DNA of 64,000 nt, taken from the NCBI RefSeq assembly GCF_900107455.1, contig NZ_FNQB01000003.1, forward strand, positions 744,001 to 808,000. Reading direction: 5' to 3'. The notes beneath the pieces were generated by a model. It was given only the letters and a program-made list of their open reading frames with translations, ran no database searches and was not told the DNA's origin. This document shows, piece by piece, positions 16,094 through 47,754 of the stretch. The first letter of the stretch is position 1. Each line of letters starts with the position of its first letter. Made by a program: the position numbers and the translations under genes. This DNA is from Asanoa ishikariensis (GTDB lineage Bacteria; Actinomycetota; Actinomycetes; Mycobacteriales; Micromonosporaceae).

Positions 16094-16162
16094 GTTTCGA
16101 GAGCAGTTTCGCTTTGCCGACCAGGGGTGTACGGTGCCGAGACAGGCCCTTGGATCGAAGGT

Positions 16163-16170
16163 TTTCGAAA
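16163..16170. promoter_or_regulatory. TTTCGAAA palindrome upstream of the LacI-type gene
   Basis: GTTTTCGAAAC surrounds a perfect 8-bp palindrome ending 4 nt before the ATG at 16174; TTTCGAGA and GTTTCGC lie about 65 nt further upstream. LacI-type repressors in actinobacteria often bind CGAAA/TTTCG-like palindromes, so this may be an autoregulatory operator. Confidence 0.4.
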
Positions 16171-16173
16171 CTT

Positions 16174-25959: not shown

Positions 25960-26061
25960 GCAATCTCCAGGGCGTTCGGGGTGACAGAGGGTGGCTGCGT
26001 CCTTGCAGCGGCCATCAGTGTGAATATCTCGTGATCGTTAAGCAAGAGCAATTTTGCCAAA

Positions 26062-26102
26062 GAGCAAAGGTCTTGACGTTTGCTCGATCGCGAGCGTTCA
26101 AT
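26062..26102 (+). promoter_or_regulatory. Promoter of the threonine-synthase-like gene with dyad GAGCAAA-N10-TTTGCTC
   Basis: TTGACG (26073-26078), 18 nt, TTCAAT (26097-26102), ending 6 nt before the GTG at 26109: leaderless geometry. GAGCAAA (26062-26068) and TTTGCTC (26079-26085) flank the -35 exactly, a likely repressor site, perhaps for the GntR encoded two genes on. A second dyad GCTCG-ATCG-CGAGC follows at 26082-26095. Between this site and the secreted-protein gene I see only AT-rich sequence. Confidence 0.6.
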
Positions 26103-26108
26103 GGATCG

Positions 26109-32984: not shown

Positions 32985-34285
32985 GCCGGCCGCCCCGGCA
33001 GGAACGCCAGCGCGGCAGCGACCAGCGTCTCGACGCCGCGGCGTAGCGTGGGCAGCCGGTCCGGCGCGTAGAACGGCGTGTGCTGGCCCGGCATCCGGGC
33101 CATCCGCTCGCGCAGCTCGCCGGTCTCCGCGTCCCACAGGGCCGCCTCGGTGCTGCCGTAGAACCACATCGTGGCCGGGATCCGCCGCCCGCGATGGGAC
33201 GCGTAGTAGGCGAAGTCCTCGCTGCCCTTGTTGGCCTCGGGCAGGTCGATGACGTCAGCCGCACCGAACAGCTCGGCGTGGACGGCGCGGACGCGGGCCG
33301 TCACGGCCTCGTCGTTGTCGACCGCGATCGTGTGCTCGCACAGCTCGATCTCGGGCGGTCGAGGTGACCGGCCGGTCGCGGCCACGCCGTTCACGATCCG
33401 CTCCATGGCGGCCTGGAGCACGTCGATGACGGGCTCGCTGGTGGCCCGCAGCGTCACCTCGAGCACCGCCTCGGGCGGAATGATGTTGGGCCGGGTCCCG
33501 GCGTGCACCGAACCCACGGTCAGCACGGTCATCTCGTCAGGATCGACCTCGCGGGCCACGATGCCCTGGAGCAACACGATGGTCTGCGCGGCCAGCAGCA
33601 CCGGGTCGACCGACCAGTGGGGCGCCGCGCCGTGCGCGCCGCGCCCGTGGATGGTGATCCGGAAGTTCCGGCAGGCCGAGTAGGCGATCCCGGGCTTGTG
33701 GTGCACCATCCCGGTGCGGGTGATCGCGCAGTGCTGGGCCAGCACCACGTCCGGCCGCGGGAAGCGGTCGAAGAGCCCGTCGCCCAGCATCGCCTTGGCG
33801 CCCTGCATCGTCTCCTCGGCGGGCTGCGCGATCAGCAGCAGCGTGCCGCGCCACCGGTCGCGCTGCGCGACCAGCAGCCGGGCGGCGCCGACCAGGCTCG
33901 CCGTGTGCAGGTCGTGGCCACAGGCGTGCATGACCGGCACGGTCGTCCCGTCGGGTCGGATGCCGGTGGCGGTGCTCGCGTACGGCAGGCCGGTGTCCTC
34001 GGCGATCGGCAGCGCGTCGAAGTCGGCGCGGATCGCGACGACCGGCCCGGGGCCGTTGGCCAGCACGCCGACGACGCCGAGACCGCCGACGCCGGCCGTC
34101 ACCTCGAGACCGGCGGCGTCGTAGTGCGCGGCGATGACGCCGGCTGTGCGGACCTCGGCGCCGGACAGCTCGGGGTGGGTGTGCAGGTCCTGGTAGAGGG
34201 CGTCGACCTCGGGCAGCAGCCCGTCGAGGCCGGCGAGGACCGTCCGGGCCAGGCCGGCGGCCTCCTGTGCTGAGTCGGTGGCCAT
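32981..34285 (-). CDS. M20-family amidohydrolase / aminoacylase
   Basis: 434 residues of the AbgB/HipO-like M20D group. The motifs are HTHPELSGAEV, FDALPIAEDTGLPYAS, HACGHDLHTASLVGAARLL (metal ligands), PAEETMQGAKAML and HGRGAHGAAPHWSVDPV. Such enzymes hydrolyse N-acyl amino acids such as hippurate, indole-acetyl amino acids or aminobenzoyl-glutamate. First gene of the leftward three-gene operon: GGGGAGG lies 8 nt before the ATG and a promoter lies upstream. Together with the D-aminoacylase-like product it suggests an N-acylated amino acid as substrate. Confidence 0.92.
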   Translation of the reverse strand: MATDSAQEAAGLARTVLAGLDGLLPEVDALYQDLHTHPELSGAEVRTAGVIAAHYDAAGLEVTAGVGGLGVVGVLANGPGPVVAIRADFDALPIAEDTGLPYASTATGIRPDGTTVPVMHACGHDLHTASLVGAARLLVAQRDRWRGTLLLIAQPAEETMQGAKAMLGDGLFDRFPRPDVVLAQHCAITRTGMVHHKPGIAYSACRNFRITIHGRGAHGAAPHWSVDPVLLAAQTIVLLQGIVAREVDPDEMTVLTVGSVHAGTRPNIIPPEAVLEVTLRATSEPVIDVLQAAMERIVNGVAATGRSPRPPEIELCEHTIAVDNDEAVTARVRAVHAELFGAADVIDLPEANKGSEDFAYYASHRGRRIPATMWFYGSTEAALWDAETGELRERMARMPGQHTPFYAPDRLPTLRRGVETLVAAALAFLPGRPA

Positions 34286-34319
34286 CGGGTGCCTCCCCTG
34301 TGGAACGAGTTCGATCGAC

Positions 34320-34349
34320 AGCCTAGCTTTCGCTCTCGGGCGTACTCAA
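34320..34349 (-). promoter_or_regulatory. Putative promoter of the M20/E1/deacylase operon
   Basis: Reading leftward: TTGAGT (34349-34344), 18-nt spacer, TAGGCT (34325-34320). The expected start site is near 34313, giving a leader of about 28 nt with a good ribosome site. It lies 18 bp from the GTTCGA-N13-TTTCGAA element, so the same regulator may affect both directions. Confidence 0.5.
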
Positions 34350-34366
34350 GGAAATGATCGCTTATT

Positions 34367-34392
34367 TTCGAAACTCTATTGACTAGTCGAAC
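34367..34392. promoter_or_regulatory. Regulon element, site 1: GTTCGA-N13-TTTCGAA over the FAH-gene -35
   Basis: On the plus strand: TTCGAAA (34367-34373), three bases, TATTGAC (34377-34383), three bases, TCGAAC (34387-34392). The -35 TTGACT (34379-34384) is inside. The same arrangement, with identical spacing and the same central TATTGAC, occurs at the promoter of the nine-gene operon (46789-46814), and the outer halves again at 46997-47022. Likely operator for the GntR encoded at 47062. Confidence 0.7.
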
Positions 34393-34450
34393 ACCCGAGC
34401 CCGATGCTGAAGCGGGCCGGGTGGCCGGCCCGCGAAGCAAGGAGCGGCAC

Positions 34451-35305
34451 ATGCGGATTGCCAACGTCGCCGGCCGGTTGACCGTCCTCACGCCCGTCGG
34501 CGGCATCGACGTCGAGCGCGCGAGCGCCGGCCATTTCTCCGCGGATCCCGCCGCGGTCTACGAACGCTGGGCCGAGTTCACGGCGTGGGCGGACGGGCTC
34601 GACGCCGCGGCCGCGACACCGGTCGACGAGGACGCCCTCGGCGCTCCGTCGCCACGGCCGGCGCAGGTGTTCGCGATCGGCCTCAACTACGGCGCACACG
34701 CCCTCGAAGCGGGCTACGACATCCCGGAAGTGCCGATCACCTTCACGAAGTTCCCGACCTGCATCACCGGCCCGCACGGCGAGCTTCCGATTCCGGGAGA
34801 CACCGTCGACTGGGAGGTCGAGCTGGTCGCGGTCGTCGGCCGGCGGGCGAGCAACGTCGCCGTCGACGACGCCTGGTCCTACATCGCCGGACTCACGGTC
34901 GGGCAGGACTACTCGGAGCGGCGCGTGCAGACCCTCGGGCAGACACCGCAGTTCAGCCTCGGCAAGTCCTTCCCCGGCTTCGGCCCGACCGGCCCGTGGC
35001 TGGTCACCCTCGACGAGTTCGACGACGTCGACAACCTGCTGCTGGAGTGCACCGTCAACGGCGCGCTGATGCAGTCGGGCCGCACCCGCGACATGATCGT
35101 CTCGGTGCCGGGCCTCATCTCGCGCCTCTCGGCGGTGTGCCCGCTGCTGCCCGGCGACCTCATCTTCACGGGCACGCCCGAGGGCGTCGGCTCCGGCCGC
35201 ACGCCGCCGGTCTTCCTGCGCCCGGGCGACGAGGTGATCAGCACGATCGAGCGGATCGGCGCGATCCGCCAGCGGTGTGTGGCCGCCGCTCACGCGTTCG
35301 TCTGA
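34451..35305 (+). CDS. Fumarylacetoacetate hydrolase (FAH)-family protein
   Basis: 284 residues, starting at ATG 34451 with AAGGAG 6 nt upstream. The metal and catalytic segments are visible: FAIGLNYGAHALEAGYDIP, VDWEVELVAVVGR, GKSFPGFGPTGPWLV and LLPGDLIFTGTPEGVGSGR. FAH-family enzymes cleave C-C bonds of acylpyruvates or decarboxylate oxaloacetate and related acids; in sugar or amino-acid catabolism they act on 2,4-diketo acids. Transcribed alone, divergent from the M20 operon, with the shared regulatory element over its promoter. Its 3' end overlaps the S9 peptidase gene by 16 bp. Confidence 0.9.
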   Translation: MRIANVAGRLTVLTPVGGIDVERASAGHFSADPAAVYERWAEFTAWADGLDAAAATPVDEDALGAPSPRPAQVFAIGLNYGAHALEAGYDIPEVPITFTKFPTCITGPHGELPIPGDTVDWEVELVAVVGRRASNVAVDDAWSYIAGLTVGQDYSERRVQTLGQTPQFSLGKSFPGFGPTGPWLVTLDEFDDVDNLLLECTVNGALMQSGRTRDMIVSVPGLISRLSAVCPLLPGDLIFTGTPEGVGSGRTPPVFLRPGDEVISTIERIGAIRQRCVAAAHAFV

Positions 35306-37080
35306 GTCGGTGGCTTCAGGTGGCGGTCGAGGAACGCGTCGACCGCCGCCGCGCGGCGGGCCCGGTTGGAAGGGCGGCCGTGCAGGTTCATCAGGTGACC
35401 TTCCCCCGGGATCCGGACCAGCTCGACGTCGCGCCCGAGCCGGCGCAGCGCCGCGTGTAGTTGTTCGCTCTGTGCGACCGGGCAGACCTGGTCGTGCTCG
35501 GCGTGGACGAGCAGCAGCGGCGTGCGGATCCGGTCGGCGTGCACGAGCGGAGACCGGTCGACGTACCGCGGTGAGCTCCACGGCGCGCCGCCCATCGGCA
35601 GGTCCCAGAACGGCGAGCGCCAGGCGGCCATGAAGTCGCTGATGCCGTTCTCGCTGATCGCGCAGGCGAAGCGGCTCGTGTGCGCGATCGCCCACTGCGC
35701 CATGAAGCCGCCGTAGCTGACGCCCCAGATCGCCATCCGCTCCGGGTCGACGCCGGGCAGCGCGGCCGCCGCGTTCACCACCGCCGTGACGTCCTGCCAG
35801 TCCACGCCACCCCAGTCGCCGCGGATCGCGGTCGCGAACTCCTCGCCGTAGCCCTGGCTGCCGCGCGGGTTGAAGGTCAGCACCGCGTAGCCGCGCGCCG
35901 CGAGCCGCTGCACCTCGGCCGTGTGCCGCCAGCCGACGGCGCCGTGCGGTCCACCGTGCACGTTGACCAGCAACGGCCGAGGGCCGCCGTCGTGCGCGGT
36001 GAGCCAGGCGTCGACGGCCTCGACCGCGACCGGGGTCATCGGCGCCGCGGCACGCACCGCGGCCGGGTTCGCGTCCGTCACCGCCAGGGACCGGCCGGTC
36101 GGCTCGTCGGCCACGTGGACGTCGCCGGGGTTGAGCGCGTCGCTGCGGACGAACGCCACCCGCCCGCCGCCGACCGTGGGCGACAGGCACGTGTGCGGGC
36201 CGTCGAAGACCCGGCCGCTGCGGCCGGACGAGGGTGCGAACCAGGCCAGCGGCCCGCGCCCGCCGACGGCGACCTCCGTGTAGATCCGGTCGCTGGCCGC
36301 CGACCACACCACGGGCGCGTCGCCGGTGCCACGCGGGTCGTCGCCGCGGACCGGGTTGCCGAGCCCGTACGTCCAGTCCGCCGTCAGCTCCACGGCGGGA
36401 TCGGTCAGGAACAACCGCAGGTTCACGTCCGCGGCGTCGCCGTGCCGGTGTCCGAGGTAGGCCAGCCGGGCGCCGTCGGGGCTCCACGCGAAGCCGCGGA
36501 CGGGACCGGCGCCGTCGGTGACGCGGACGATCTGGTCAGGTCCGGTCGCGACGCACAGGTCGCCCCAGCCACCGAACCGGTCGGTGAGAAAGGCGAGCCG
36601 TTCCCCCGACCACTGTGGAGCGTGCGCGTCGCCGGGCAGCGTCCAGCGCGGACGCCCGTCCACGTCGACGACCTGGACGCGGCGGTGGTTTCGGTAGAGC
36701 CCGGGCAGCCCGTCGACCCGGACCCCGCCGAGCGAGTCGACCAGGGCGGAGCGGGCGATCGCCAGGAGCCGGCCGTCCGGGGACCAGGCCGCCTCCGTGA
36801 CCTGTCCCCCACCCTGCCGGGCCAGCTCCCGACCCGACCCGGTGGCGGCGTCGACCAACCAGAGCCCGTCGCCGCGGGACACCGCGAGCTGCCGGCCGTC
36901 CGGCGACCAGCGTGGCGCGGTGCCGGCGCCCAGCCAGAGCGTCGGCCCGCCGCCGGCCGGCACCACGCCGACGCGGGACACCACCGCGTCCGCGTCCGGG
37001 TCGAGCGCGCCCTCGACGTACGCGACCCGCGTGCCGTCCGGAGACAGCCGCGGGTCGGCGAGCCAGCGTAGGTCAGTCAC
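35290..37080 (-). CDS. S9-family prolyl oligopeptidase-like peptidase
   Basis: 596 residues. The N-terminal half is a beta-propeller (repeats of WSPDG...LAVSRG kind). The C-terminal alpha/beta hydrolase has the triad S455 (GVSYGGF), D530 (HAEHDQVCP) and H562 (GEGHLMN), with the HGGPHGAVGW oxyanion loop. No signal peptide, so it acts in the cytoplasm on imported short peptides or acyl-amino acids. It is the last gene of the nine-gene leftward operon; its GTG overlaps the alcohol dehydrogenase stop by 8 nt. Confidence 0.92.
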   Translation of the reverse strand: MTDLRWLADPRLSPDGTRVAYVEGALDPDADAVVSRVGVVPAGGGPTLWLGAGTAPRWSPDGRQLAVSRGDGLWLVDAATGSGRELARQGGGQVTEAAWSPDGRLLAIARSALVDSLGGVRVDGLPGLYRNHRRVQVVDVDGRPRWTLPGDAHAPQWSGERLAFLTDRFGGWGDLCVATGPDQIVRVTDGAGPVRGFAWSPDGARLAYLGHRHGDAADVNLRLFLTDPAVELTADWTYGLGNPVRGDDPRGTGDAPVVWSAASDRIYTEVAVGGRGPLAWFAPSSGRSGRVFDGPHTCLSPTVGGGRVAFVRSDALNPGDVHVADEPTGRSLAVTDANPAAVRAAAPMTPVAVEAVDAWLTAHDGGPRPLLVNVHGGPHGAVGWRHTAEVQRLAARGYAVLTFNPRGSQGYGEEFATAIRGDWGGVDWQDVTAVVNAAAALPGVDPERMAIWGVSYGGFMAQWAIAHTSRFACAISENGISDFMAAWRSPFWDLPMGGAPWSSPRYVDRSPLVHADRIRTPLLLVHAEHDQVCPVAQSEQLHAALRRLGRDVELVRIPGEGHLMNLHGRPSNRARRAAAVDAFLDRHLKPPTQTNA

Positions 37081-38185
37081 CGAAGTCGAGCACCGCGGTC
37101 AGCGGCGAGTCGTCGGCGAACAGTGCCCGGTAGGCCGTGGGCGCGTCCGCGAACGGCACCCGGACCGCCTTCATCACGTCGAGGTCGACGCGCCCCTCGG
37201 CGAGCAGGCGCACGAAGTGGCCCATGTTGCGGTTCTCGGTCCAGCGCACGACGCTGATCGGCAGGTCGACGTTGTTCTCCTCGTAGACCGGGTCGTAACG
37301 GCCCGGCCCGTACGCGATCGACGGCACGAACGTCGCCTGCGCGCCGAAGAACCGCGCCCGGTCGAGGTCCATCCCGAAGTCGCCGAGCGCGACCACCCGC
37401 CCGCCGGGCCGCAGCAGGTCGAACGCGAAGTTCACCAGCGTGCTGCCGGGGTCGGCGGCCGCCACGATGACGGCGTCGACGCCGAACCCGCCGGTCAGGC
37501 CGCGCACCCGGGAAAGCCCGCCCGCGCCGGTGTCGGTCAGCGTCGCGACGGCGCCGAGCTGGCTCGCCAGCTCGAGCCTGGCCGTGTTCGTGTCGAGTGC
37601 GACGACGTAGACGCCCGCCGACGCCGCGAGCTGGGCGATCAGCAGGCCGAGCATGCCGCTGCCGAAAGTCGCCACGGTCTCGCCGAACCGGCACTCGGTG
37701 CGGCGCAGGGCCTCGATCGAGACCGCGCCGAGCGTGACGTGCGCGGCCGCCGCCAGGTCGACGCCGGCCGGCACCGGAACGGTCAGGTTGCGGGGCACGG
37801 CGACGAGGTCGCAGTGGTACGCGCACTGGCTGCCGCTGCACGCGACCAGGTCGCCGGGGCGCAGGTCGAGCACGTCCGCACCGACCGCGACGACCGTGCC
37901 GGCCAGGCTGTAGCCCAGCGAGGCGGCGTCGTCGGGCGGCATGTGCGGCAGCCGGGTCTGACCCCGCACGGCGGAGGACCGGACGGTGCGCCAGGTGTAC
38001 GCGGCGTTCGGATACTCGTGCGCCTCCGCGACACTGGTCCGGGTGGCGCGCACGATCGAACGTTCGGTGCCCGGGCTGATCACCGAGTAGCGGGGCCGCA
38101 CGAGCACGTCGCCCGGCCCGAGCTCGGGATCGGGCACCTCGCGAAGGATGATCTCGCCGTCCTGGGCGAGCACCCGCCGCGCCAT
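37073..38185 (-). CDS. Zinc-type (MDR) alcohol dehydrogenase family protein
   Basis: 370 residues of the medium-chain dehydrogenase/reductase family. The GroES-like N-terminus has GDVLVRPRYSVISPGTERS and a VAVGADVLDLRPGDLVAC segment. The Rossmann motif is TVATFGSGMLGLLIAQLA. The usual catalytic zinc cysteine region is atypical (SVISPGTE in place of C-G-T-D), as in the family of bi-domain oxidoreductases beside Gfo/Idh genes, so it may act without zinc. Coupled to the 2-hydroxyacid dehydrogenase gene by a 1-nt overlap. Confidence 0.85.
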   Translation of the reverse strand: MARRVLAQDGEIILREVPDPELGPGDVLVRPRYSVISPGTERSIVRATRTSVAEAHEYPNAAYTWRTVRSSAVRGQTRLPHMPPDDAASLGYSLAGTVVAVGADVLDLRPGDLVACSGSQCAYHCDLVAVPRNLTVPVPAGVDLAAAAHVTLGAVSIEALRRTECRFGETVATFGSGMLGLLIAQLAASAGVYVVALDTNTARLELASQLGAVATLTDTGAGGLSRVRGLTGGFGVDAVIVAAADPGSTLVNFAFDLLRPGGRVVALGDFGMDLDRARFFGAQATFVPSIAYGPGRYDPVYEENNVDLPISVVRWTENRNMGHFVRLLAEGRVDLDVMKAVRVPFADAPTAYRALFADDSPLTAVLDFGD

Positions 38186-39165
38186 CAGCGGGCCGCCCTT
38201 GCGTGCGGGCGCACCTGCGGGTTGACGATCGAGTCGGTCCAACCCGTGCGCAGCCACTGCACGGTGGCGCCGTACACCGCGCGGCGCAGGTCCCGCCCGG
38301 ATTGCGGCGAGTTGGCGGCCTCGTGCGGAGTCAGGATGACGTTGTCGCGGCCGCGCAGGGGGTTCTCGGCCGGCAACGGCTCCTGCTCGAAGACGTCGAG
38401 GGCCGCCGCGCCGATCCGGCCGGCGTCGAGCGCCTCCACGAGCGCGGCCTGGCTGACCACCCCGCCTCGGCTGGTGTTGACCAGTGCGGCGTCCGGCCGC
38501 ATCAGGGACAGGGAGTCCGCGTCGAACAGGTGGTGTGTCTCGGGCGTGAGCGGCACGTGGACGCTGACGAAGTCGGACGCCGCCAGCAGCTCCTCGAAGC
38601 CGACCTGCCGCACCGCCGGGTCGTCGGAGCGGACGACCGGGTCGTAGCCGAGCACCGTGGCGCCGAACGCCGTCGCGACCCGCGCCACGTGGCGGCCGAT
38701 CCGGCCGAGGCCGACCACGCCGACCGTGCTGCCCGCCAGCCGCTTCTGCCGCGCCGGACCGTGCCGCCACAGGCCCTGCTGGCCCTGGCGGTCGCGGTAG
38801 ACCACCTGCCGGGAGACCGCGAGGAGCATGGCGAGGGCGTGCTCGGCGACGTCCTCGGTGCAGTACGCGGGCGCGTTGGCGACGGCGATGCCGAGCTCGG
38901 TGGCCGCGGCGACGTCGATCTGCTCGTAGCCGACGCCCCAGCGGATCGCGAGGCCCAGCCGGGGCAGCCGCTCCAGCACGTCGCGGGTGAGGTGCGGCGT
39001 CCACTCGACCCAGATCACGTCGGCGTCGGCGGCGGCTTCGACGAGGGCGTCGCCGTCGGCCGCGCGCACCACCTTCAGCGCGGCGCCGGCCTCGGCCAGC
39101 GCGGCCTCCTCCTCGTCGTAGGGCGCGAGGTCGCCGACGTACTCGAGCTGCACGACCGTGCTCAT
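38185..39165 (-). CDS. D-2-hydroxyacid dehydrogenase (CtBP/SerA-like)
   Basis: 326 residues. The NAD-binding motif is GVVGLGRIGRHVARVATAFG; the catalytic Arg is in NTSRGGVVSQ, the Glu in LDVFEQEPLP and the His in LTPHEAANS. The N-terminal domain IRWGVGYEQIDVAAATELGIAVANAP resembles the CtBP-like branch. It should interconvert a D-2-hydroxy acid and a 2-oxo acid with NAD(P). It sits between the aminotransferase and alcohol dehydrogenase genes and overlaps both. Confidence 0.92.
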   Translation of the reverse strand: MSTVVQLEYVGDLAPYDEEEAALAEAGAALKVVRAADGDALVEAAADADVIWVEWTPHLTRDVLERLPRLGLAIRWGVGYEQIDVAAATELGIAVANAPAYCTEDVAEHALAMLLAVSRQVVYRDRQGQQGLWRHGPARQKRLAGSTVGVVGLGRIGRHVARVATAFGATVLGYDPVVRSDDPAVRQVGFEELLAASDFVSVHVPLTPETHHLFDADSLSLMRPDAALVNTSRGGVVSQAALVEALDAGRIGAAALDVFEQEPLPAENPLRGRDNVILTPHEAANSPQSGRDLRRAVYGATVQWLRTGWTDSIVNPQVRPHARAAR

Positions 39166-40253
39166 CGGGTGCTCCCTCTTTCCAGGTGCGGCGCCAGCAC
39201 GTCCGCGACGAGCCGGGCCTGGGACAGGTCGTTGTAGAGGTGGAAGGACAGGCGGATCAGGGCGGCGGCGCCGGTGGGGGGCACCGACGTCACGATGTTC
39301 GCCGCACGCAATGCGGCCGGGGCACCTTCGGTCACGGGCACCGCCAGCACGGACGAGCCGGTCGGCGGGAGCCCGAGCAGCTTGGCCGCCTCGTCGGCGA
39401 GGCCCACGCACCAGTCGCGGCGCTCGCCGGCCGGCACGCCGGCCAGGAACTCCAGTGCGGGCACCGCACCGACCCAGGCGTGCCAGGCCAGCGACACGTC
39501 GTAACGGGCCGCCGTCGGCGCGAGGTCGGCGAGCGCCGGGCCGTAGTAGTGGGCGTACGCGTCGCCGGCCGAGCGCCACGACGCGACCAGGGCCGGCACC
39601 TGCTCCCAGCGTTCCCTGGCCACCCGCATAAACGCGACACCGCGCGGGCAGAGCAGGTGCTTGTACGCGGCGACCAGCACGTAGTCGAGTCCGAGCGCCT
39701 CCGCGTCGACGGGCAGCACACCGGCCGCGTGCGTGGCGTCGACCAGCACCGCCGCGCCGACCGCACGGGCCGCCGTCGCGACCGCAGCCAGGTCCTGCAC
39801 CCGCCCGTCGTTGGACCGCACCTGGCTGGTCGCCACGAGGGTCGTCGAGGGCCGGACCTCGTCGGCGAGCGTGTCGAACGGCACCTGCCGCACGTGGACG
39901 CCCCGGGCCCGCGCGACGACCAGGGCGGGCAGCAGCACCGAGGCGAACTCGCCCTCCGGCACCAGGATCTCCTCGCCCGCGGAGAGCGAGCCGAGCACCA
40001 CGCCCGCGCCGACGGACACGGCGGGCAGCAGCGCGATCTCGTCGACCGGCGCCCCGAGCAGCGGGCCGGCGGCGGCTCGGGCGCGTTCGGCCGGGGCGTC
40101 CCAGTCGCGTACCCAGTCGGCCGACCCGGCCTGCCACGCGGCGAGCGCGTCGGTCACCGCGGACACGGTGCGGTGGGTCGGCAGTCCGTAGCCGGCCGTG
40201 TTGAGGTAGGTGCGGTCGAGGGGCGCGAACTCGGCCCGCGCGGCGGGATGCAC
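39162..40253 (-). CDS. Class V aminotransferase (cysteine desulfurase-like fold)
   Basis: 363 residues from GTG 40253 (VHPAARAEFAPLDRTYLN) with GGAGGG 9 nt upstream. The PLP region shows GAAVLVDATHAAGVLPVD and the Schiff-base lysine in YVLVAAYKHLLCPRG. The desulfurase cysteine loop is not evident, so a transaminase, selenocysteine-lyase-like or kynureninase-like reaction is more likely. Starts 2 nt after the ABC ATPase stop and overlaps the dehydrogenase start (ATGA). Confidence 0.85.
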   Translation of the reverse strand: MHPAARAEFAPLDRTYLNTAGYGLPTHRTVSAVTDALAAWQAGSADWVRDWDAPAERARAAAGPLLGAPVDEIALLPAVSVGAGVVLGSLSAGEEILVPEGEFASVLLPALVVARARGVHVRQVPFDTLADEVRPSTTLVATSQVRSNDGRVQDLAAVATAARAVGAAVLVDATHAAGVLPVDAEALGLDYVLVAAYKHLLCPRGVAFMRVARERWEQVPALVASWRSAGDAYAHYYGPALADLAPTAARYDVSLAWHAWVGAVPALEFLAGVPAGERRDWCVGLADEAAKLLGLPPTGSSVLAVPVTEGAPAALRAANIVTSVPPTGAAALIRLSFHLYNDLSQARLVADVLAPHLERGSTR

Positions 40254-40255
40254 GG

Positions 40256-42112
40256 TCAGGACCCTCCACTCAGGAACTCGTTCGCCCGCTCCGGGTCCGG
40301 CACGGCCGCGATGAGCTCCTTCGTGTACGGATGGCTCGGCTCGCGCAGCAGCCGGGTGGTCGGCCCTTCCTCCCGGATCGCCCCGTTCTGCAGGATGATC
40401 GCCTCGTCGGCGACCGCCCGCAGCACGCCCAGGTCGTGGGTCACGAAGACCACCGTCAGGTCCCGCTCGGCCTGGAGCCCCACCAGCAGCTCCAGGATCG
40501 AGGCCTGCACGGACACGTCGAGCGCCGACGTGACCTCGTCGCAGAGCAGCACCTCGGGCTCGGCGAGCAGGGCCCGCGCGATCGCGACCCGCTGCCGCTG
40601 CCCGCCCGACAGGTTGCGCGGGTAGCGGTCGACCAGGTCCGGCGCGAGCCGCACCTGGCGCATCATCGCCGCCACCGCCTCTCGCCGTCCGCGCTTGGCG
40701 ATGTCGGGCCGGAACAGCTTGAGCGGCCGTTCCAGCGACTGGTAGACCGTGTGTCGCGGGTTGAGGGTGGCGTCCGGGTTCTGGAAGACGATCTGGATGG
40801 CCCGGCGCAGCGCGACCGGCCGCTCGCCGGCCGTGCCGGCCAGGGCCGCGCCGCGGTAGCTGATCGTGCCGGACGACGGGCGCACCAGGCCGGCGATCGA
40901 CCGCAGCAGCGTGGACTTGCCGCTGCCGCTCTCCCCCGCGATGCCCAGCGCCCGGCCCGCCGGCACGCGCACCGAGACGTCGTCGACGGCGACGAACGGC
41001 TCGCCGGAACCGGGCCGGGCGAACACGACGCCGACGTTGTCGACGGTGAGGATCGCGTCCAGCTCCTTGGCCGGCGCGGCGCGGTCCACGACCGTCGCGG
41101 GTGCGTGGTCGGCACCCGGGTCGAACGCCGGCAACTCCGCCAGCCGGACGCACCGGGCGGCGCGGTCCTCGGCCAGGGTGACCAGCGGGATGTCCGTGTC
41201 GCAGGCGTCCGTGCGGAACTTGCACCGCTCCGCGAACCCGCACGTGTGCACCGGCACGGACGGCCGCGGGATGCCCGGGATGCCGTGCAGCGGACGGTCC
41301 GACGCGATCGTCGGCACGGCACCGATCAACGCCGCCGTGTACGGGTGCCGCGGCGCCGCGTACACCGCGGACGCCACGCCCTGTTCGACGATCTGGCCGG
41401 CGTACATGATGGCCAGCTCGTCGCAGACCGTGGCCAGCAGCGCCAGGTTGTGGCTCACGTAGAGCGCGGCGATGCCGGCGTCCCGGGCCAGCGTGACGAT
41501 GAGCCGGTTCACGTGCGCCTGGGTGACGACGTCGAGCCCGGTCGTGGGCTCGTCGAGAATCAGCACCTCGGGATCGACCGAGAGGGCCAGCGCGAGCGCG
41601 ATCCGTTGCTGCTGCCCGCCGCTGAACTGGTGCGGGTACTTGTGCAGCGCGTTCTCCGGCTCCGGGATCTCCACCCGCGCCAGCCATTCGGCACTGCGGG
41701 CGAGCGCGGCGGCGTTGTCGAGGCCCCGGTGCCGGCGCAGCCCTTCGACGAAGTGGCGGCGGATGGTCAGCGCCGGGTTGAGCGAGGTCGCGGTGTCCTG
41801 CGGCAGGTAGGCGAGCCGCGCACCCCACACCTTGCGCAGCTCCTTGATGGACGCCCGGTCGAGGTCGCGGCCGTCGAACGCGACCCGGCCGGCCAGGATC
41901 TCCTGGCCGGACACCCGGTAGCCCAGCAGGGAGAGGGCGAGCGTGCTCTTGCCGGACCCGGACTCCCCGGCCAGCCCGAGGATCCGTCCGGAGTGGAGCT
42001 GGACGGACACGTCGGCCAGCACCTGGGTCAGCCCGGTCCGGGCCCGGTAGCCGACGGACAGGCCTTCGGCGGCCAGGTCGCCGTCCTGGCGGGTGGTCTG
42101 CGTCGTCGTCAT
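40256..42112 (-). CDS. Oligopeptide ABC importer, fused double ATPase (DppD-DppF)
   Basis: 618 residues holding two complete ABC domains. First: GESGSGKSTLALSLLG, signature FSGGQQQRIALALAL, Walker B LILDEPTTGLD. The DppD-type C-terminal tail contains cysteines in HTCGFAERCKFRTDACD. Second (from about residue 350): GESGSGKSTLLRSIAG, LSGGQRQRVAIARALL, LLCDEVTSALD. Together these power the two permeases upstream in the operon. Nickel/peptide/opine importers are all possible; gene context favours a peptide or acylated amino acid. Confidence 0.95.
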   Translation of the reverse strand: MTTTQTTRQDGDLAAEGLSVGYRARTGLTQVLADVSVQLHSGRILGLAGESGSGKSTLALSLLGYRVSGQEILAGRVAFDGRDLDRASIKELRKVWGARLAYLPQDTATSLNPALTIRRHFVEGLRRHRGLDNAAALARSAEWLARVEIPEPENALHKYPHQFSGGQQQRIALALALSVDPEVLILDEPTTGLDVVTQAHVNRLIVTLARDAGIAALYVSHNLALLATVCDELAIMYAGQIVEQGVASAVYAAPRHPYTAALIGAVPTIASDRPLHGIPGIPRPSVPVHTCGFAERCKFRTDACDTDIPLVTLAEDRAARCVRLAELPAFDPGADHAPATVVDRAAPAKELDAILTVDNVGVVFARPGSGEPFVAVDDVSVRVPAGRALGIAGESGSGKSTLLRSIAGLVRPSSGTISYRGAALAGTAGERPVALRRAIQIVFQNPDATLNPRHTVYQSLERPLKLFRPDIAKRGRREAVAAMMRQVRLAPDLVDRYPRNLSGGQRQRVAIARALLAEPEVLLCDEVTSALDVSVQASILELLVGLQAERDLTVVFVTHDLGVLRAVADEAIILQNGAIREEGPTTRLLREPSHPYTKELIAAVPDPERANEFLSGGS

Positions 42113-42999
42113 ACCATCAGCCGTTCGTGGATGCGGTCGCCGAAGAACTGGGTCAGCGCGTCGGCGATGAGGTTGACGGCGATCGCCAGCACGCCGATCA
42201 GCAGCGCGGGCACGAGCACGCCGACCGGGGACACCAGCAGCAGCGCCCGGTTCTGCGCCACCATCACGCCCCAGTTGGCGCTGGGCGGTTGGACGCCGAG
42301 GCCGAGGAAGCTCAGCGAGGCGATGAACATGATCGCGTACGTGAACCGCAGCGCGATCTCGACGAGCAGCGTCGGCCCGATGTTCGGCGTGATCTCGCGG
42401 AACAGGATCCAGCCGAGCGTCTCGCCGCGGGCGCGGGCGGCCAGCACGAACTCGCGGGGCGCGATCGCCTGCGTGGCCGACCGGATGACCCGCGTGATGT
42501 AGGGGGCGTAGACCACCGCGACCGCGGTGACCACCACCGCCCCGCCACCGCCGAAGGCCGCGACGACGACCAGCACGGCCAGGTACGACGGGATCGCCAG
42601 CGCGATGTTGATGGCCCAGGTGACCACCGAGTCGACCTTGCCGCCGAGGTAGCCGGAGACCAGGCCGACCAGCGTGGCCACCACCATCGCGGCGGAGACC
42701 GCGACCAGCGGCAGCAGGATCACCGACGCGCCGCCGTGCAGCACCCGGCTGAGGATGTCGCGGCCGTAGGAGTCGGTGCCCAGCCAGTGCTGTGCAGACG
42801 GGCCGAGGATCGGCTGGTCGCTGATCTCGTTGGGCGAGTCGGGCGCGATGAACGGCCCGATCACGACGAGCACCAGGAGCAGCAGCAACAGCCCAACCCC
42901 GAACCCGCCCTGCGGGATCGCGAGGAAGCCCCGCAGACTGCGCTGGCGCGGCACCGACACGTCCGCCGCCGTAACGGTGTTCAGCACATCCGCGCTCAT
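42109..42999 (-). CDS. Oligopeptide ABC importer permease, DppC-like
   Basis: 296 residues. Characteristic DppC features: GTDSYGRDILSRVLHGGASV, six membrane helices, the coupling (EAA) loop REFVLAARARGETLGWILFREITPN, and FLGLGVQPPSANWG. Start ATG 42999 overlaps the DppB-like stop by 4 nt, and its stop overlaps the ATPase start. Confidence 0.95.
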   Translation of the reverse strand: MSADVLNTVTAADVSVPRQRSLRGFLAIPQGGFGVGLLLLLLVLVVIGPFIAPDSPNEISDQPILGPSAQHWLGTDSYGRDILSRVLHGGASVILLPLVAVSAAMVVATLVGLVSGYLGGKVDSVVTWAINIALAIPSYLAVLVVVAAFGGGGAVVVTAVAVVYAPYITRVIRSATQAIAPREFVLAARARGETLGWILFREITPNIGPTLLVEIALRFTYAIMFIASLSFLGLGVQPPSANWGVMVAQNRALLLVSPVGVLVPALLIGVLAIAVNLIADALTQFFGDRIHERLMV

Positions 43000-43997
43000 C
43001 GGACCGTGTCCCGGAGCTTGGGGGTCACGTAGACCACGATCGCGTCGGCGGCCAGGTTGGCGACCACGAACAGTGCGCCGATCATCAGTGCCAGGGCCTC
43101 GACCACCGGTGCGTCCCGGGAGGCCGCCGACTGGGCGAGCAACTGGCCCATCCCGGGGAAGCCGAACAGGGTTTCCGCGACCACCACGCCTCCGATCAGA
43201 CCGGCGAACTGGAGGCCCAGCGCGGTGACCACCGGCGGGGCCGCGTTGGGCAGGATGTGCCGCAGCGACAGGGACGGCTCGGTGACACCGCGCAGCACCG
43301 CCGCCCGCACGTAGGTCTCCGACGCCACCTCGCGGGCGTTCGCCCGCATGAGCCGGATGATGTACGGGATCGTGCCGAGCGCGATCGTGATGGCTGGCAG
43401 CACGTACGCGGACGGGCTGTCGAACAGGCCGCCGTAGCTGACGGCGGTCGAGTCGACCGGGAGCCAGGCGAGCCAGACTCCGAGCAGGATCGCGAGCATC
43501 AGGCCGAGGACGAACTCCGGGAACGCCGCGACGATCAGCGTCACGAACGTCAGCGAGGCGTCGCGCTTGCCACGCAGGCGGACGCCCGACCAGAGCCCGA
43601 TCGGCACCGAGATGACGACGGTGAGCACCCAGGAGAGCAGCACCAGCACGACCGACGGGCCGAGTCGCGGCGAGATGACGTCCCAGACCGGGCCGTTCGA
43701 CTGGTACGAGGTGCCGAGGTCGCCGCGGAGCACGCCGCCGAGCCACTCCAGGTAACGCAGCACGACGGGCTGGTCGAGGTGGTGCAGGTGCTGGAACGCG
43801 ACCACCTGCTCGTCGGTGGCGTATTGGCCGAGGATGTCGCGGGCGGGGTCGCCGGCGATCGCGGTCAGCCCGAAGATCACGATGGTGATCGCGAAGAGCG
43901 TCACCAGCAGCGTGATGAGCTGCCGGACGAGGTAGGGCAGGCGGCGGGGCGCCCTCGTCGTGCGAGGACGCCCGGCCTGCTGTGCGGTGTCGGTCAT
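42996..43997 (-). CDS. Oligopeptide ABC importer permease, DppB-like
   Basis: 333 residues. The N-terminus (LVRQLITLLVTLFAITIVIFGL) is the usual first helix; the coupling loop reads SETYVRAAVLRGVTEPSLSLRHILPNA, and the end has GGVVVAETLFGFPGMGQLL. It pairs with the DppC-like protein to form the membrane channel. Its ATG shares one base with the stop of the binding-protein gene. Confidence 0.95.
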   Translation of the reverse strand: MTDTAQQAGRPRTTRAPRRLPYLVRQLITLLVTLFAITIVIFGLTAIAGDPARDILGQYATDEQVVAFQHLHHLDQPVVLRYLEWLGGVLRGDLGTSYQSNGPVWDVISPRLGPSVVLVLLSWVLTVVISVPIGLWSGVRLRGKRDASLTFVTLIVAAFPEFVLGLMLAILLGVWLAWLPVDSTAVSYGGLFDSPSAYVLPAITIALGTIPYIIRLMRANAREVASETYVRAAVLRGVTEPSLSLRHILPNAAPPVVTALGLQFAGLIGGVVVAETLFGFPGMGQLLAQSAASRDAPVVEALALMIGALFVVANLAADAIVVYVTPKLRDTVR

Positions 43998-45556
43998 TAG
44001 CTGAGGTGCGCGCCGGCCAGGTACATGTGCGCGCCGTTGGACGCGTCGAGCCCCTGGACACGCTTGTTCTTCCCGTACACCTGGCCCTCCCAGCCGGGGA
44101 TGACGTTGGCCGCGCCGTCGTTGACGAGCGTCAGCGCGTCGCTGAAGAGCTGCTTCTGCTTGGCCTCGTCGGCCGTCGCGGTCGCCTGTGAGACGAGCTC
44201 GTCGAACTGCGGGTTGCTGAAGTGGGTGATGTTGAGGTCACCACCCTTGCTGTAGAGCCGGGGCAGGGCCTGCGAGACGTGCAGGCGGGCCACGCTGATG
44301 CCGATCGCCGGCTTCTTCTTGAAGATGTCGGTGAAGAAGGTGGCGTGCGGCCAGGTGATCACGTTGGCGTTGATGCCGCCGGCCTCCGCGGTGCTCTTGA
44401 AGCTCACCGCGGTGTCGAGCTTGTCGCCCTCGTACGCGTAGACGTCGAAGGTGAAGTTGCCACTGACGCCCGCCTCCTTGAGCAGCGCCTTGGCCCGGTC
44501 GGGGTCGTAGGGGCGCGGCTGCATGCCGGACGGGAAGAACGGGTCCCCGGGCGGGATCGGGATGTCGGGCGAGATGATGTCGATGCCGGGCGCGACAACC
44601 GACATGATCTTCTTGCGGTCGGCGGCGTACTGCATCGCCTCGATGATCTTGCGGTTGTCGAACGGCGAGGTGTCACCGAACATGGTCAGCCCGACCCAGC
44701 CGCCGTGCTTGAGCATGTAGGGCTCGACGCTGCCCTTGAGCAGGAGCGTGTTGGCGCCGGTGATGTTGTCGACGACGTCCTGGCTGCCGGACGTGACCGC
44801 CTGCAGGCGGGTGGCGTCCTCGGCGATGACGACGATCTGGATCGCGTCGAGGTAGGGCTTGTTGTCCTGCCAGTAGCCGTCGAACCGGGCCAGCGAGGTG
44901 CGGGCGGCGGCGTCGAAGCCGGCCAGCGTGAACGGCCCGGTGCCGTTGCCCTTGCTGAAGTCGGTGGTGCCGTCCTTGACGATGCTGAAGCAGGCGTGCG
45001 ACACCATCACGGGGATGAACGCGTTGGCCTTGGTCAGCGTCAGTTTCACCGTGCTCTGGTCGGCGGCCGCGATCCCGGACGCCTGCAGGTAGGGCCCGAT
45101 CTGGGCGAGGCCGACCGCGGCCAGGGCCGGGTCGAGGATCCGCTTGAACGAGTAGACGACGTCCTGCGCGGTCAGCGGGCTGCCGTCGTGGAACTTGACG
45201 CCCGGCCGGAGCTTGAACGTCCACGTCAGAGCGTCCGGTGTGGACGACCACTCGGTGGCCAGGGCCGGCGTCAGAGTGTAGTTCTCGTCGGCCCGCACCA
45301 GCGTGTCGTAGCAGTTGGTGGCGATCAGCAGCGGCATCGTGCCGCCGGCCTTGGCCGGGTCGGGGACCTGCGTCGCGTTGCCCGCGGCCACGGCCCAGCG
45401 CAGCGTGCCGCCCTTCTTGGGCGACCCCGCCGCGCCGGCGGCGACCGGTGCCGACCCGCCGTCGTCGCCGCAGGCGGCGAGCCCGAGGAGCCCGACGCCG
45501 AGTGCCGCGCCAGCACCCGTCTTCAGCATCGTCCGTCGATTGATCACATTCGTCAT
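43997..45556 (-). CDS. Substrate-binding lipoprotein, SBP_bac_5 (DppA-like)
   Basis: 519 residues. The signal sequence begins with a twin-arginine-like NRRTMLK, continues with a hydrophobic core and ends in the lipobox LGLAAC, so C29 should carry the lipid. The mature part shows the family segments LTPALATEWSSTPDALTWTFKLRPGVKFHDGSPLTAQDVVYSF and NITGANTLLLKG. It captures the substrate outside the membrane for the DppBC-like channel. Forty nt after the enolase-superfamily gene. Confidence 0.95.
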   Translation of the reverse strand: MTNVINRRTMLKTGAGAALGVGLLGLAACGDDGGSAPVAAGAAGSPKKGGTLRWAVAAGNATQVPDPAKAGGTMPLLIATNCYDTLVRADENYTLTPALATEWSSTPDALTWTFKLRPGVKFHDGSPLTAQDVVYSFKRILDPALAAVGLAQIGPYLQASGIAAADQSTVKLTLTKANAFIPVMVSHACFSIVKDGTTDFSKGNGTGPFTLAGFDAAARTSLARFDGYWQDNKPYLDAIQIVVIAEDATRLQAVTSGSQDVVDNITGANTLLLKGSVEPYMLKHGGWVGLTMFGDTSPFDNRKIIEAMQYAADRKKIMSVVAPGIDIISPDIPIPPGDPFFPSGMQPRPYDPDRAKALLKEAGVSGNFTFDVYAYEGDKLDTAVSFKSTAEAGGINANVITWPHATFFTDIFKKKPAIGISVARLHVSQALPRLYSKGGDLNITHFSNPQFDELVSQATATADEAKQKQLFSDALTLVNDGAANVIPGWEGQVYGKNKRVQGLDASNGAHMYLAGAHLS

Positions 45557-45596
45557 GAGGGGGGTCTCCGATCGCGATCAGTACGTGCGTGGTGTG

Positions 45597-46715
45597 TCAG
45601 CCGGCGGCGGCGTGCCGAACGAAGTCCTCGTCGACGGTGATGCCGAGGCCGGGACCGTCCGGGATGGGCATCCGCCCGCCGGTGAGAGTGAGCGGCTCAT
45701 GTGCGAGCCGGGTGCGCATCGGGTTCTCGAACCGGTCCACCTCGAGCACGGGTGACTCCGGTCCGTTCAGTTCGGATGGTTCGGGCAGAAGGCTGATCGC
45801 CTGGAGAGTGGCGGCCAGCAGCACCGCGCCGCCCCAGGCGTGCGGAACGCACTGCCGGCCGCGCAGGGCGGCCAGCTCGGCGACGAACAACAGCTCGCCG
45901 ATGCCGCCGCAGATCGCCACGTCCGGCTGGACGATGTCGATCGGCGTGTGGTTCAGGTACGAGTCGAACGCGCCCCGGGTCTCCAGGCCCTCGTACGCCG
46001 CGATCGCGATGCCGAGGCCGCCGAGGTGCTCGTAGCCGGGGTAGGCCAGGCCGCCGCGGAACCGGATCAGCGGCTCCTCCAGCCAGCGGAAGTGCAGCTC
46101 CGCGAGGCCACGGGCGACCTCGCGGGCACGCGGCACGGTGTATGCGCCGTTGGCGTCGACCATCAGCTCCACGTCGGGGCCGACCTGGTCGCGGACCTTC
46201 GCGAGGACCGGCAGCTCGCGGGTCGGCGCGAACCGGCCGATCCGGATCTTGCAGGCGGTGAAGCCGTCGGCGACCGCGGCGGCGACCTCGGCGGGCCAGC
46301 TCTGCTCGGGGTCGACCCCGTCGATGTAGCCACCGCTGGACGCGTAACCGCGGACGCTGTCGCGCCGGCGACCGCCGTACAACGTGGAGACCGGCACGCC
46401 GAGGCGGCGGGCGCGCAGGTCGTCGAGTGCGATGGCGAGTGCGCTGATCGCGAGGCCGTCGCCGGTCGCGACGCGCAGCGTGTCGAGCAGCGGCCGGGCA
46501 TCGGCGGCGTCACGGCCGATCAGCAGCGCGCCGACCTCTTCGATGACCGCGGCGACACCGGCGCGGGCGTAGGTCTCGCCCCAGCCGTCGAGGCCGTCGC
46601 CGTCGCGGAGCCGGACGAGCACGCTGCGCCGTTCGCGGTAGGTGGCGCCGGACGGACCCGTGGGCGCGGAGATCGGCGATCTGAGCTGGAAAACCTCGAC
46701 TCGCTGGATCGCCAT
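45597..46715 (-). CDS. Enolase-superfamily (mandelate racemase/muconate lactonising) enzyme
   Basis: 372 residues. Aligning by eye to mandelate racemase gives the metal ligands D187, E213 and E242, the dyad D265/H292 (PHAWGG), and K156-I-R158 where mandelate racemase has K-x-K. The Arg in place of the second Lys removes the S-specific base, so this is probably an acid-sugar dehydratase or a one-base epimerase, not a mandelate racemase. First gene of the nine-gene operon; ATG 46715 with GAGGAG 8 nt upstream and a leader of about 50 nt. Confidence 0.88.
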   Translation of the reverse strand: MAIQRVEVFQLRSPISAPTGPSGATYRERRSVLVRLRDGDGLDGWGETYARAGVAAVIEEVGALLIGRDAADARPLLDTLRVATGDGLAISALAIALDDLRARRLGVPVSTLYGGRRRDSVRGYASSGGYIDGVDPEQSWPAEVAAAVADGFTACKIRIGRFAPTRELPVLAKVRDQVGPDVELMVDANGAYTVPRAREVARGLAELHFRWLEEPLIRFRGGLAYPGYEHLGGLGIAIAAYEGLETRGAFDSYLNHTPIDIVQPDVAICGGIGELLFVAELAALRGRQCVPHAWGGAVLLAATLQAISLLPEPSELNGPESPVLEVDRFENPMRTRLAHEPLTLTGGRMPIPDGPGLGITVDEDFVRHAAAG

Positions 46716-46772
46716 GGCCCACGCTCCTCGTCGGTCAAAGCCGCCCGTTCAACCGGGCCCCTTTGATCGCCG

Positions 46773-46802
46773 AGTATGTTCAGCCGACGTTCGAGGTGTC
46801 AA
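46773..46802 (-). promoter_or_regulatory. Promoter of the nine-gene leftward operon
   Basis: Reading leftward: perfect TTGACA (46802-46797), 18-nt spacer, CATACT (46778-46773). Expected start near 46766. The -35 is inside regulon element site 2, so bound regulator would block polymerase. Confidence 0.7.
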
Positions 46803-46814
46803 TACATTTTCGAA
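46789..46814. promoter_or_regulatory. Regulon element, site 2: GTTCGA-N13-TTTCGAA
   Basis: GTTCGA (46789-46794), three bases, GTCAATA (46798-46804), three bases, TTTCGAA (46808-46814). It matches site 1 (34367-34392) at all outer and central positions with the same spacing but opposite orientation relative to the window. TTCGA and TCGAA halves are 20 bp centre to centre, two helical turns. Confidence 0.72.
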
Positions 46815-46996
46815 TCCTCAAGGGGATCTGTTACTTCAACCGTCACCTTCACTGAAAGTGGGGTATCCGGTTTGCCGGTCTTGTGGCCACGAAAGGGTCA
46901 GATTGGCGACGCTCGGCGGGGGTCGTACGGCGCGTTCGGGCGGGTTTCGGCACACTGAACCGGGTCTGAGCACGGTTTATGCGGCCCGCGGCGAAG

Positions 46997-47022
46997 GTTC
47001 GACATCCGGCTCAGGTTTCGAG
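46997..47022. promoter_or_regulatory. Regulon element, site 3: GTTCGA-N13-TTTCGAG upstream of the GntR gene
   Basis: GTTCGA (46997-47002), 13 bases, TTTCGAG (47016-47022). Outer halves and spacing match sites 1 and 2; the central GTCAATA is not kept, probably because the other two include a -35. It lies just ahead of the GntR promoter and suggests autoregulation. Confidence 0.62.
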
Positions 47023-47061
47023 ATTGTGCCGATGTCTCAAATTTCTCCTACACTGTCAACC

Positions 47062-47754
47062 ATGCCACGTGGTGAGACCCGCGCGGAGCGCATCTACGCC
47101 AACCTCCGCGGCGACATCCTGACCGGCCGACTGCTCCCCGGTCAGCGGCTGCCGTTCGCCGACCTCGGCGCCCGCTACAGCACGAGCGTCGGCGTCCTCC
47201 GAGAGGCGCTGTCCCGGCTCGTCGAGCAGGGCCTCGTGCTCTCGGAGCCGCAGCTCGGCTTCCGGGTCACGCCGGTCTCCGAGGAAGACCTGCGCGACCT
47301 GACGAGCACGCGGATCGACATCGAGACGCTCTGCCTACGACACGCGATCAACCACGGCGACCTCGCGTGGGAGTCCCGCGTCGTCGCCGCATTCCACACG
47401 CTGGACCGCACGCCAGAACTGGCAGTGGTCCAGCCGCGCGCCGTCAACGAGGACTGGGCGACCGCACACGCCGCGTTCCACGCCGCGGTCCTCGAAGGCT
47501 GCCCCAGCCGGCGGCTCCGCGACATCGCGGCATCGCTGCGCGACGCCTCGGAGCTCTACCGGCGGTGGTCACGCCACCTGGGCAGCGAGGACACGCGGGA
47601 CATCCCCGGCGAGCACCGCGCGCTGCGCGACGCGGTGCTGGCCCGCGACGAGGAACAGGCGGTGGCGGCGCTGACCAAGCACATCTCCTACACGACCCGG
47701 GCCCTGCTCGACTCGGCACCGGCCGAGCTGATGGCGGAGACAGCCGACGCCTGA
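47062..47754 (+). CDS. GntR-family regulator (FCD type) of the catabolic island
   Basis: 230 residues. The winged helix is ETRAERIYANLRGDILTGRLLPGQRL then YSTSVGVLREALSRLVEQGLV; the C-terminal FCD domain has STRIDIETLCLRHAI, WATAHAAFHAAVLEGCPS and IPGEHRALRDAVLARD, with the usual Asp/His metal pattern. An in-frame ATG at 47032 would add ten residues but lies upstream of the -10. Three copies of GTTCGA-N13-TTTCGAR in the island, one upstream of this gene, mark its probable targets. It is convergent with the epoxide hydrolase, with one base between the stop codons. Confidence 0.92.
   Translation: MPRGETRAERIYANLRGDILTGRLLPGQRLPFADLGARYSTSVGVLREALSRLVEQGLVLSEPQLGFRVTPVSEEDLRDLTSTRIDIETLCLRHAINHGDLAWESRVVAAFHTLDRTPELAVVQPRAVNEDWATAHAAFHAAVLEGCPSRRLRDIAASLRDASELYRRWSRHLGSEDTRDIPGEHRALRDAVLARDEEQAVAALTKHISYTTRALLDSAPAELMAETADA

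Follow-up and report, generated by a model that had tools for sequence, protein, structure and literature searches.

We analyzed a 64,000-nucleotide stretch of the Asanoa ishikariensis genome, hereafter the window (assembly GCF_900107455.1, contig NZ_FNQB01000003.1; the whole assembly comprises 9,085,759 bases in 11 contigs). A 26-bp word, GTTCGA-N13-TTTCGAR, recurs there at the promoters of an FAH-family gene, of a nine-gene operon and of gntR, which encodes a GntR regulator with an FCD domain. The CsiR/GlaR-like gntR lies at 47062–47754 on the plus strand. Its product carries the GntR winged helix PF00392 at the N terminus (57.2 bits against a cut-off of 27) and the FCD domain PF07729 at the C terminus (60 bits, cut-off 24.3); its best NCBIfam match was the CsiR/GlaR equivalog NF008576, at 127.3 bits under the cut-off of 218. 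The FAH-family gene (34451–35305, plus strand; PF01557, E 1.6e-60) gave 2,4-didehydro-3-deoxy-L-rhamnonate hydrolase as its best NCBIfam match (192.6 bits, below the cut-off of 500). On its other side follow three minus-strand genes: an M20-family amidohydrolase (32981–34285, TIGR01891 above cut-off), a pyruvate dehydrogenase E1/transketolase-like gene that overlaps the M20 end (30690–32984), and an Amidohydro_3 amidohydrolase that overlaps the E1 end (29105–30697), which an earlier, sequence-only reading of this DNA had called a deacylase. The nine-gene operon (35290–46715, minus strand) proposed in that reading agrees with the reading frames, the gene ends overlapping or lying close together. 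According to the Pfam labels it encodes an MR/MLE enolase-type protein (45597–46715), an SBP family 5 protein (43997–45556), two permeases (42996–43997 and 42109–42999), a double ATPase (40256–42112), a class-V aminotransferase-like protein (39162 to about 40259), a 2-hydroxyacid dehydrogenase (38185–39165), a zinc-type dehydrogenase (37073–38185) and an S9 peptidase (35290–37080).

A pattern scan of the window returned three copies of the word without mismatch, at 34367–34392 (minus), 46789–46814 (plus) and 46997–47022 (plus), with the identical spacing, coordinates and orientations first described. The copy at the FAH promoter, located in the gap between the M20 start (34285, minus) and the FAH start (34451, plus), has its TCGA cores at 34368–34371 and 34387–34390. 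The FAH promoter TTGACT-N18-GATGCT (34379–34408, plus) has the −35 element at 34379–34384 and the −10 element at 34403–34408, and TTGAC was present in 8/8 FAH upstream regions. In the operon copy, TCGA occurs at 46791 and 46810. The promoter there reads TTGACA-N18-CATACT (46773–46802, minus; hexamers at 46802–46797 and 46778–46773), and both hexamers were found in 6/6 relatives listed. At these two promoters the TCGA words flank the −35 element, which bears out the claim that TATTGAC in the center of both copies supplies the −35. The gntR copy, with TCGA at 46999 and 47018 and a weak TCAA next to them at 47037, is without TATTGAC. A −10-like TACACT (47049–47054, plus) that leaves a very short leader is aligned in relatives, and a search of the window sequence found no good −35 for the gntR promoter.

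In the complete genome (9.09 Mb) the exact pattern matched three times, always within the window, and the reversed-pattern control gave 0; a first-order Markov estimate from the window predicts about 0.12 exact copies per genome. Many copies scattered at unrelated genes, an outcome that the sequence-only reading had named as refuting its proposal, were thus absent. Its statement that the window holds no other copy at this spacing did not survive, because two-mismatch copies are present at 34309–34334 and 32315–32340. A one-mismatch match elsewhere in the genome (C3:694245) was rejected as a further site; it lies between two frames, by a TetR-like frame as judged by eye, and has no good palindrome. 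About 6 TTCGA-N14-TTCGA pairs per genome are expected by chance, and this match is one such pair.

Conservation of the word was assessed upstream of related gntR genes. A profile of ten aligned GntR proteins (A1) was run against public genome contigs, and the best 80 of at least 382 confirmed places were retained, which is not a census. These relatives are 38 to 97% identical to the GntR of the window and include near duplicates; their loci total 1.50 Mb. In the stretch from 400 bp before gntR to 40 bp into the gene, TCGA-N15-TCGA was found in 23 of the 80 loci. Many others, those of Nocardia and Amycolatopsis among them, carry a perfect ACTTTCGAAAGT and the arrangement TCGA-N16-TCGA. The best TCGA-centered 12-mer within 170 bp upstream of gntR was then scored against ACTTTCGAAAGT or ATAATCGATTAT. 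Six loci had none; 3 scored 6, 13 scored 7, 9 scored 8, 15 scored 9, 15 scored 10, 6 scored 11 and 13 scored 12. A palindrome of at least 10/12 was therefore present in 34/80 relatives compared with 0.38 per 80 in Markov shuffles, and the conservation near related gntR genes that had been asked for is strong. Because ACTTTCGAAAGT and ATAATCGATTAT were picked after these sequences and five other loci had been viewed, further locus sets matter. Among 25 order-wide matches, 21 scored at least 9, 17 at least 10, and 16 had a pair of TCGA words. One of these loci is common to the 80 (L061 = L105); without it the values were 16/24 at 10 or more and 15/24 with a pair. GntR genes of about 30% identity gave 1/18 at 9, 0/18 at 10 or more and 1/18 with a pair.

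The spacing of the TCGA words was regular. Counting TCGA pairs in which at least one palindrome scores 9 or more, the 400 bp preceding gntR contained, over all 80 loci, 20 pairs with a 19-bp spacing and 13 with a 20-bp spacing; all other spacings from 10 to 31 bp occurred 0 to 2 times each. For 36 anchors, redundancy-filtered from 49, TCG was encountered three or more times between offsets −44 and +47 only at −20, −19, 0, 19, 20, 37 and 38, where the anchor columns were selected by score and the flanking offsets were not. Given this spacing and phasing, the 26-bp word is best read as two palindromes on nearly the same helix face, sometimes with a third. The operator would then be a pair of TCGA-centered palindromes of the TTTCGAAA type with a spacing of 19 bp, or of 19 or 20 bp in relatives. 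The word first described is thus real, but its outer G and R vary in relatives; the stable core is TTCGA-N14-TTCGA. A single TTTCGAAA was rejected as a genome-wide predictor: it occurred in 12 places compared with 6 for a control word, and one palindrome alone is therefore unspecific. One single TTTCGAAA stands at 16163–16170, four bases ahead of position 16174, where a LacI-type regulator apparently starts (frame 16114–17193, labeled by eye). It is perhaps this regulator's own operator, which would be one reason for the low specificity of single palindromes.

The longer core pattern TTCGA-N4-TCAA-N5-TTTCGAA was scanned with at most one mismatch in 18 genomes. It yielded 27 sites in 15 of them and none in the other three (those of L093, L104 and L105), and the reversed control gave 0 in all 18. 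Two sites each were found in Asanoa iriomotensis, Micromonospora veneta, two Dactylosporangium genomes and the genome of the window; Dactylosporangium fulvum, which has two such systems, had four. Six genomes of the genus were considered; besides the window's three copies, the exact pattern occurred three times in G001, twice in G002 (at FAH and in the operon/gntR gap), once in G004 and not at all in G003 and G005. For G003, G004 and G005 the best gntR match was weak (E 2e-13 to 2e-14), and no FAH match reached 1e-60. In G002 (L043, 1044–4412) about 3.4 kb separate FAH and S9, which nearly touch in the window and in G001. The window also encodes a second FCD GntR (27293–27979) between a pyridoxal phosphate-dependent threonine-synthase-like gene and an amidohydrolase (26031–29148), and this trio is present in G001 and G002 as well.

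Gene order agrees with the proposed link between FAH and the regulator. An FAH homologue was located within 2.5 kb of gntR in 45/80 loci and within 5 kb in 52/80 (tblastn E ≤1e-30, midpoint distance); 15 genomes contained 1 to 7 FAH matches each at E 1e-30. FAH and gntR therefore look like an old pair. In the loci of Asanoa, M. veneta and Dactylosporangium (L080–L084), the nine-gene operon sits where FAH is found elsewhere, and FAH, about 12–16 kb from gntR, has its own site some 46–64 bp upstream of its start. A site with one perfect palindrome precedes the FAH match by about 85 bp in Saccharopolyspora (L131), where FAH is 7 kb from gntR; in Thermocatellispora (L150) FAH, cut by the locus end, lies 10 kb away and is preceded by a site at a distance of about 100 bp. 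Remote FAH genes were then collected from the 80 loci (at least 45% identity over at least 180 residues, midpoint more than 2.5 kb from gntR). Ten rows resulted, from which one L138 row at the locus edge was dropped, and L150 fell under the length cut. Within 250 bp upstream of the nine remaining genes, a TCGA pair was present in three (L131, L138 and L122) and a palindrome of at least 10 in two (L131 and L127), so that remote FAH genes with an operator of their own turn up repeatedly but not generally. A second GntR relative adjoins two of the nine (L127 and L133). As to other pairs, those in L150 stand directly in front of an amidohydrolase gene and an NMT1-type binding protein, and those in L089, L126 and L113 lie close to VOC, P450, binding-protein and ring-hydroxylase genes. 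D. fulvum has a second compact FAH-gntR-importer set (L085, 8994–16114), with pairs at FAH2, gntR2 and the SBP importer operon; this second importer operon is 28–44% identical to that of the window. Operators at the regulator's own promoter and at structural genes, kept in relatives with the exception of G002, are what an auto-regulated catabolic GntR regulon should display, and the element very probably links FAH to the importer operon 12 kb away.

One of the two-mismatch copies, GTTCGA-N13-TTTCGCT at 34309–34334 (plus), has the same spacing and lies over the promoter of the M20 gene. This promoter has a −35-like TTGAGT (34344–34349, minus) and, after an 18-bp spacer, a −10-like TAGGCT (34320–34325, minus) inside the putative fourth operator. 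In the aligned FAH upstream regions TTCGA of this site was kept in 8/8, TTTCG in 7/8 and TCAA of the −35 block in 8/8. The forward TTCG words of the M20-FAH gap (TCG at 34311, 34330 and 34368) and the TCGA at 34387 share a common 19-bp register; one CGAA at 34432 stands outside it. By itself this copy is not significant, because up to two mismatches gave 98 matches genome-wide, five of them in one tandem repeat, compared with 45 in the control. It was pursued because it is conserved in relatives. Conserved in register over the M20 promoter, it suggests that M20-E1-deacylase probably belongs to the regulon, and the earlier "perhaps" for these genes thereby gains support, tempered by the weakness of the site. 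M20 adjoins FAH in three Asanoa and three Dactylosporangium loci. The FAH locus of M. veneta (L193) gave no M20 match; it has kept the promoter block of M20 and first codons resembling those of M20 (2346–2700), after which, as judged by eye, come a short frame and then a different gene. The block may therefore be a relic, a regulated promoter that now serves a different gene, or a piece of the control region of FAH.

Taken together, the element is very likely, at a probability of roughly 0.87, the operator of the FCD-type GntR encoded at 47062–47754. The computed genome rarity, conservation, phasing and gene pairing carry this assignment, which the sequence-only reading had right but understated on two points, the phased palindromes and the fourth site. 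Several observations weigh against it. No TCGA 12-mer (6 loci) or a score of 6–7 (16 loci) was obtained within 170 bp upstream of gntR in 22/80 relatives, so the motif is not universal; none of 3 Pseudomonas and 4 Variovorax loci reached 10. In the Asanoa operators, the right side of the left palindrome matches poorly. Away from the gntR upstream regions, the 80 loci also had 12 pairs at 19 bp and 2 at 20 bp, with 0–7 at other spacings (7 at 27, 5 at 30 and 4 at 21), and only some of them stand at plausible targets. G002 has no separate gntR operator, and neither a pair nor a palindrome of at least 10 precedes five of the nine remote FAH genes (L110, L133, L139, L151 and L099). The fourth operator is weak, and the second FAH of D. 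fulvum retains the M20 block, yet no M20 match is found there.

GntR might instead read the central GTCAATA as a decayed GT-N4-AC box, the TCGA words being accessory half-sites about 9.5 bp on either side. GTCAATA is common to the FAH and operon sites and to many related sites, and the distance of about 9.5 bp fits the additional boxes 7–12 nucleotides from GntR site centers described in the cited excerpt (PMC4494728). We consider this improbable. GTCAAT is missing from the gntR site (46997–47022) and from the period-20 Nocardia and Amycolatopsis sites inspected, and where it does occur it is accounted for as the −35 of the opposite promoter. The columns between the TCGA words (offsets −15 to −5) reach at most 0.55 bits compared with 0.9–2.0 in the palindrome columns, values that are inflated since the anchors were chosen by palindrome. 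If the TCGA palindrome is taken as the center, no weak box appears 7–12 nucleotides from it; further copies follow at 19–20 bp. A GT-N4-AC in the operon site was likewise rejected as the operator, being absent from the FAH site.

Since binding by GntR is itself predicted from sequence, the conserved word could be the target of a different regulator, one that controls gntR and FAH by coincidence. This is very unlikely: gntR is common to the loci by construction, whereas the flanking genes searched vary; the more distant GntR genes are without the motif (0/18 at 10/12 or more); and the motif class varies with the recognition helix, a relationship noticed post hoc. That the copies are a mere promoter element with TCGA pairs arising by chance can practically be dismissed. 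The first two copies do include a −35 element, but the third is without one, and the spacing and phasing of TCGA as well as the whole-genome rarity speak against chance. Looping between the operon and gntR operators was considered as well; they are 208 bp apart in the window and 199, 155, 231, 311 and 322 bp apart in L080–L084, and this variation disfavors a fixed loop.

The preferred assignment to the FCD-type GntR was compared with its recognition helix. Among 33 non-redundant helices associated with a palindrome of at least 9, the position equivalent to FadR Arg45 was occupied by Val, Met, Leu, Gln, Thr, Ile or Ala and never by Arg (0/33). The usual GT...AC operator with Arg at this place, which is not required of an FCD GntR, is replaced here by a TCGA-centered consensus. 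Cross-tabulating Val/Met/Thr/Ile and Leu/Gln against TTCGAA and ATCGAT, with one Ala and three mixed-class rows excluded, gave counts of 20, 1, 2 and 6, Val/Met/Thr/Ile going with TTCGAA and Leu/Gln with ATCGAT (Fisher p 4e-4; the grouping was made post hoc and descent was not corrected for). In the FCD domain, His residues 136, 140, 185 and 207 are invariant in the ten A1 proteins and in E. coli GlaR, and possibly form a four-His metal site typical of the CsiR-like group.

We infer the following mechanism, in which binding, the direction of regulation, the inducer and two dimers per pair are all predictions. Because the palindromes are 19 bp apart, each pair would have room for two adjacent GntR dimers on nearly one DNA face. 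At FAH and at the nine-gene operon the −35 lies between the two palindromes, and bound GntR should therefore block RNA polymerase, making it most likely a repressor. The pair at its own promoter would provide autoregulation, and the weaker pair over the M20 promoter would bring M20-E1-deacylase under the same control. A pathway metabolite, probably a keto or dicarboxylic acid, would release GntR. Non-phosphorylative sugar-acid breakdown proceeds through dehydratase, dehydrogenase and diketo-acid hydrolase steps, and by analogy MLE, the zinc-type dehydrogenase and FAH could form such a route.

Control of this kind is familiar, while for the GntR family both the DNA word and the regularity of its spacing look unusual; the regulon is new but of a known kind, and its operator is unusual. 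No publication on this GntR/FAH pair or on a TCGA-centered GntR operator was found among the matches listed in the open-access PMC literature, which is no proof of novelty. Rhodococcus PenR was rejected as a match, the cited excerpt describing a different GntR with a GT/AC palindrome (PMC11998424). Tentatively, at somewhat less than even odds, the loci may represent a widespread undescribed GntR subgroup, mostly of Actinobacteria, that uses TCGA-centered palindromes without the usual arginine, arranges dimers in a phased row every 19–20 bp (registers −19, 0, +19 and +38) and has kept FAH in the regulon in several lineages after it moved kilobases away. What began as a guess about two promoters has become a regulon of 11 genes, probably 14, that can be tested, and the pattern can be used to search Actinobacteria for uncharacterized catabolic loci with GntR and FAH. 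The pairing of palindrome classes with recognition helices offers a natural series for studying DNA choice by FCD GntR proteins without Arg45.

Among known systems, the CsiR/GlaR proteins, such as those of E. coli (glaR) and P. putida (CsiR), are FCD GntR regulators that repress glutarate catabolism; they have the same domain make-up as the GntR of the window but control other enzymes. E. coli GlaR is 33% identical to it, likewise carries Val where FadR has Arg45, and shares the four His. Unlike the Asanoa operators, the region upstream of E. coli glaH contains one TCGA and no pair within 330 bp. Strings of the TTGT/ATGT-N5-TTTT type, which we take to be the GlaR sites, are present there. Upstream of E. 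coli glaH (L217, glaH at 486) a distance of 19 bp separates the TTGT box at −97 from the ATGT box at −78, and GlaR maybe uses a similar spacing. P. putida CsiR is a repressor with two protected regions and four gel-shift complexes, according to the cited excerpt (PMC6667623).

The cited part of a survey of FadR-type GntR operators gives TKGT/ACMA and NyGTNxACNy as their form (PMC4494728). Shared with that type are an FCD GntR, short palindromes, double sites in divergent promoters and extra boxes near the sites; here, by contrast, the center is TCGA, there is no conserved GT/AC and no Arg45, and copies follow at 19–20 bp instead of boxes 7–12 nucleotides from the center (PMC4494728). NanR places several dimers on a repeated operator, (GGTATA)3, as is predicted here, but in the excerpt cited its six-bp repeats are tightly packed and it has a 32-residue N-terminal extension, whereas the present palindromes are about two turns apart and the protein has no such extension (PMC8012715). 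Atu1419, a tetrameric FCD GntR, likewise represses a catabolic cluster and its own gene, uses short palindromes and has an FCD metal site, as far as the cited text goes (PMC7797058). One of the four FCD His residues of the window's GntR stands where Atu1419 has Asn137. Atu1419 differs in its ATGTATACAT operator, the G of whose palindrome is read by Arg45, and in its two sites, which are 190 bp apart and looped (PMC7797058).

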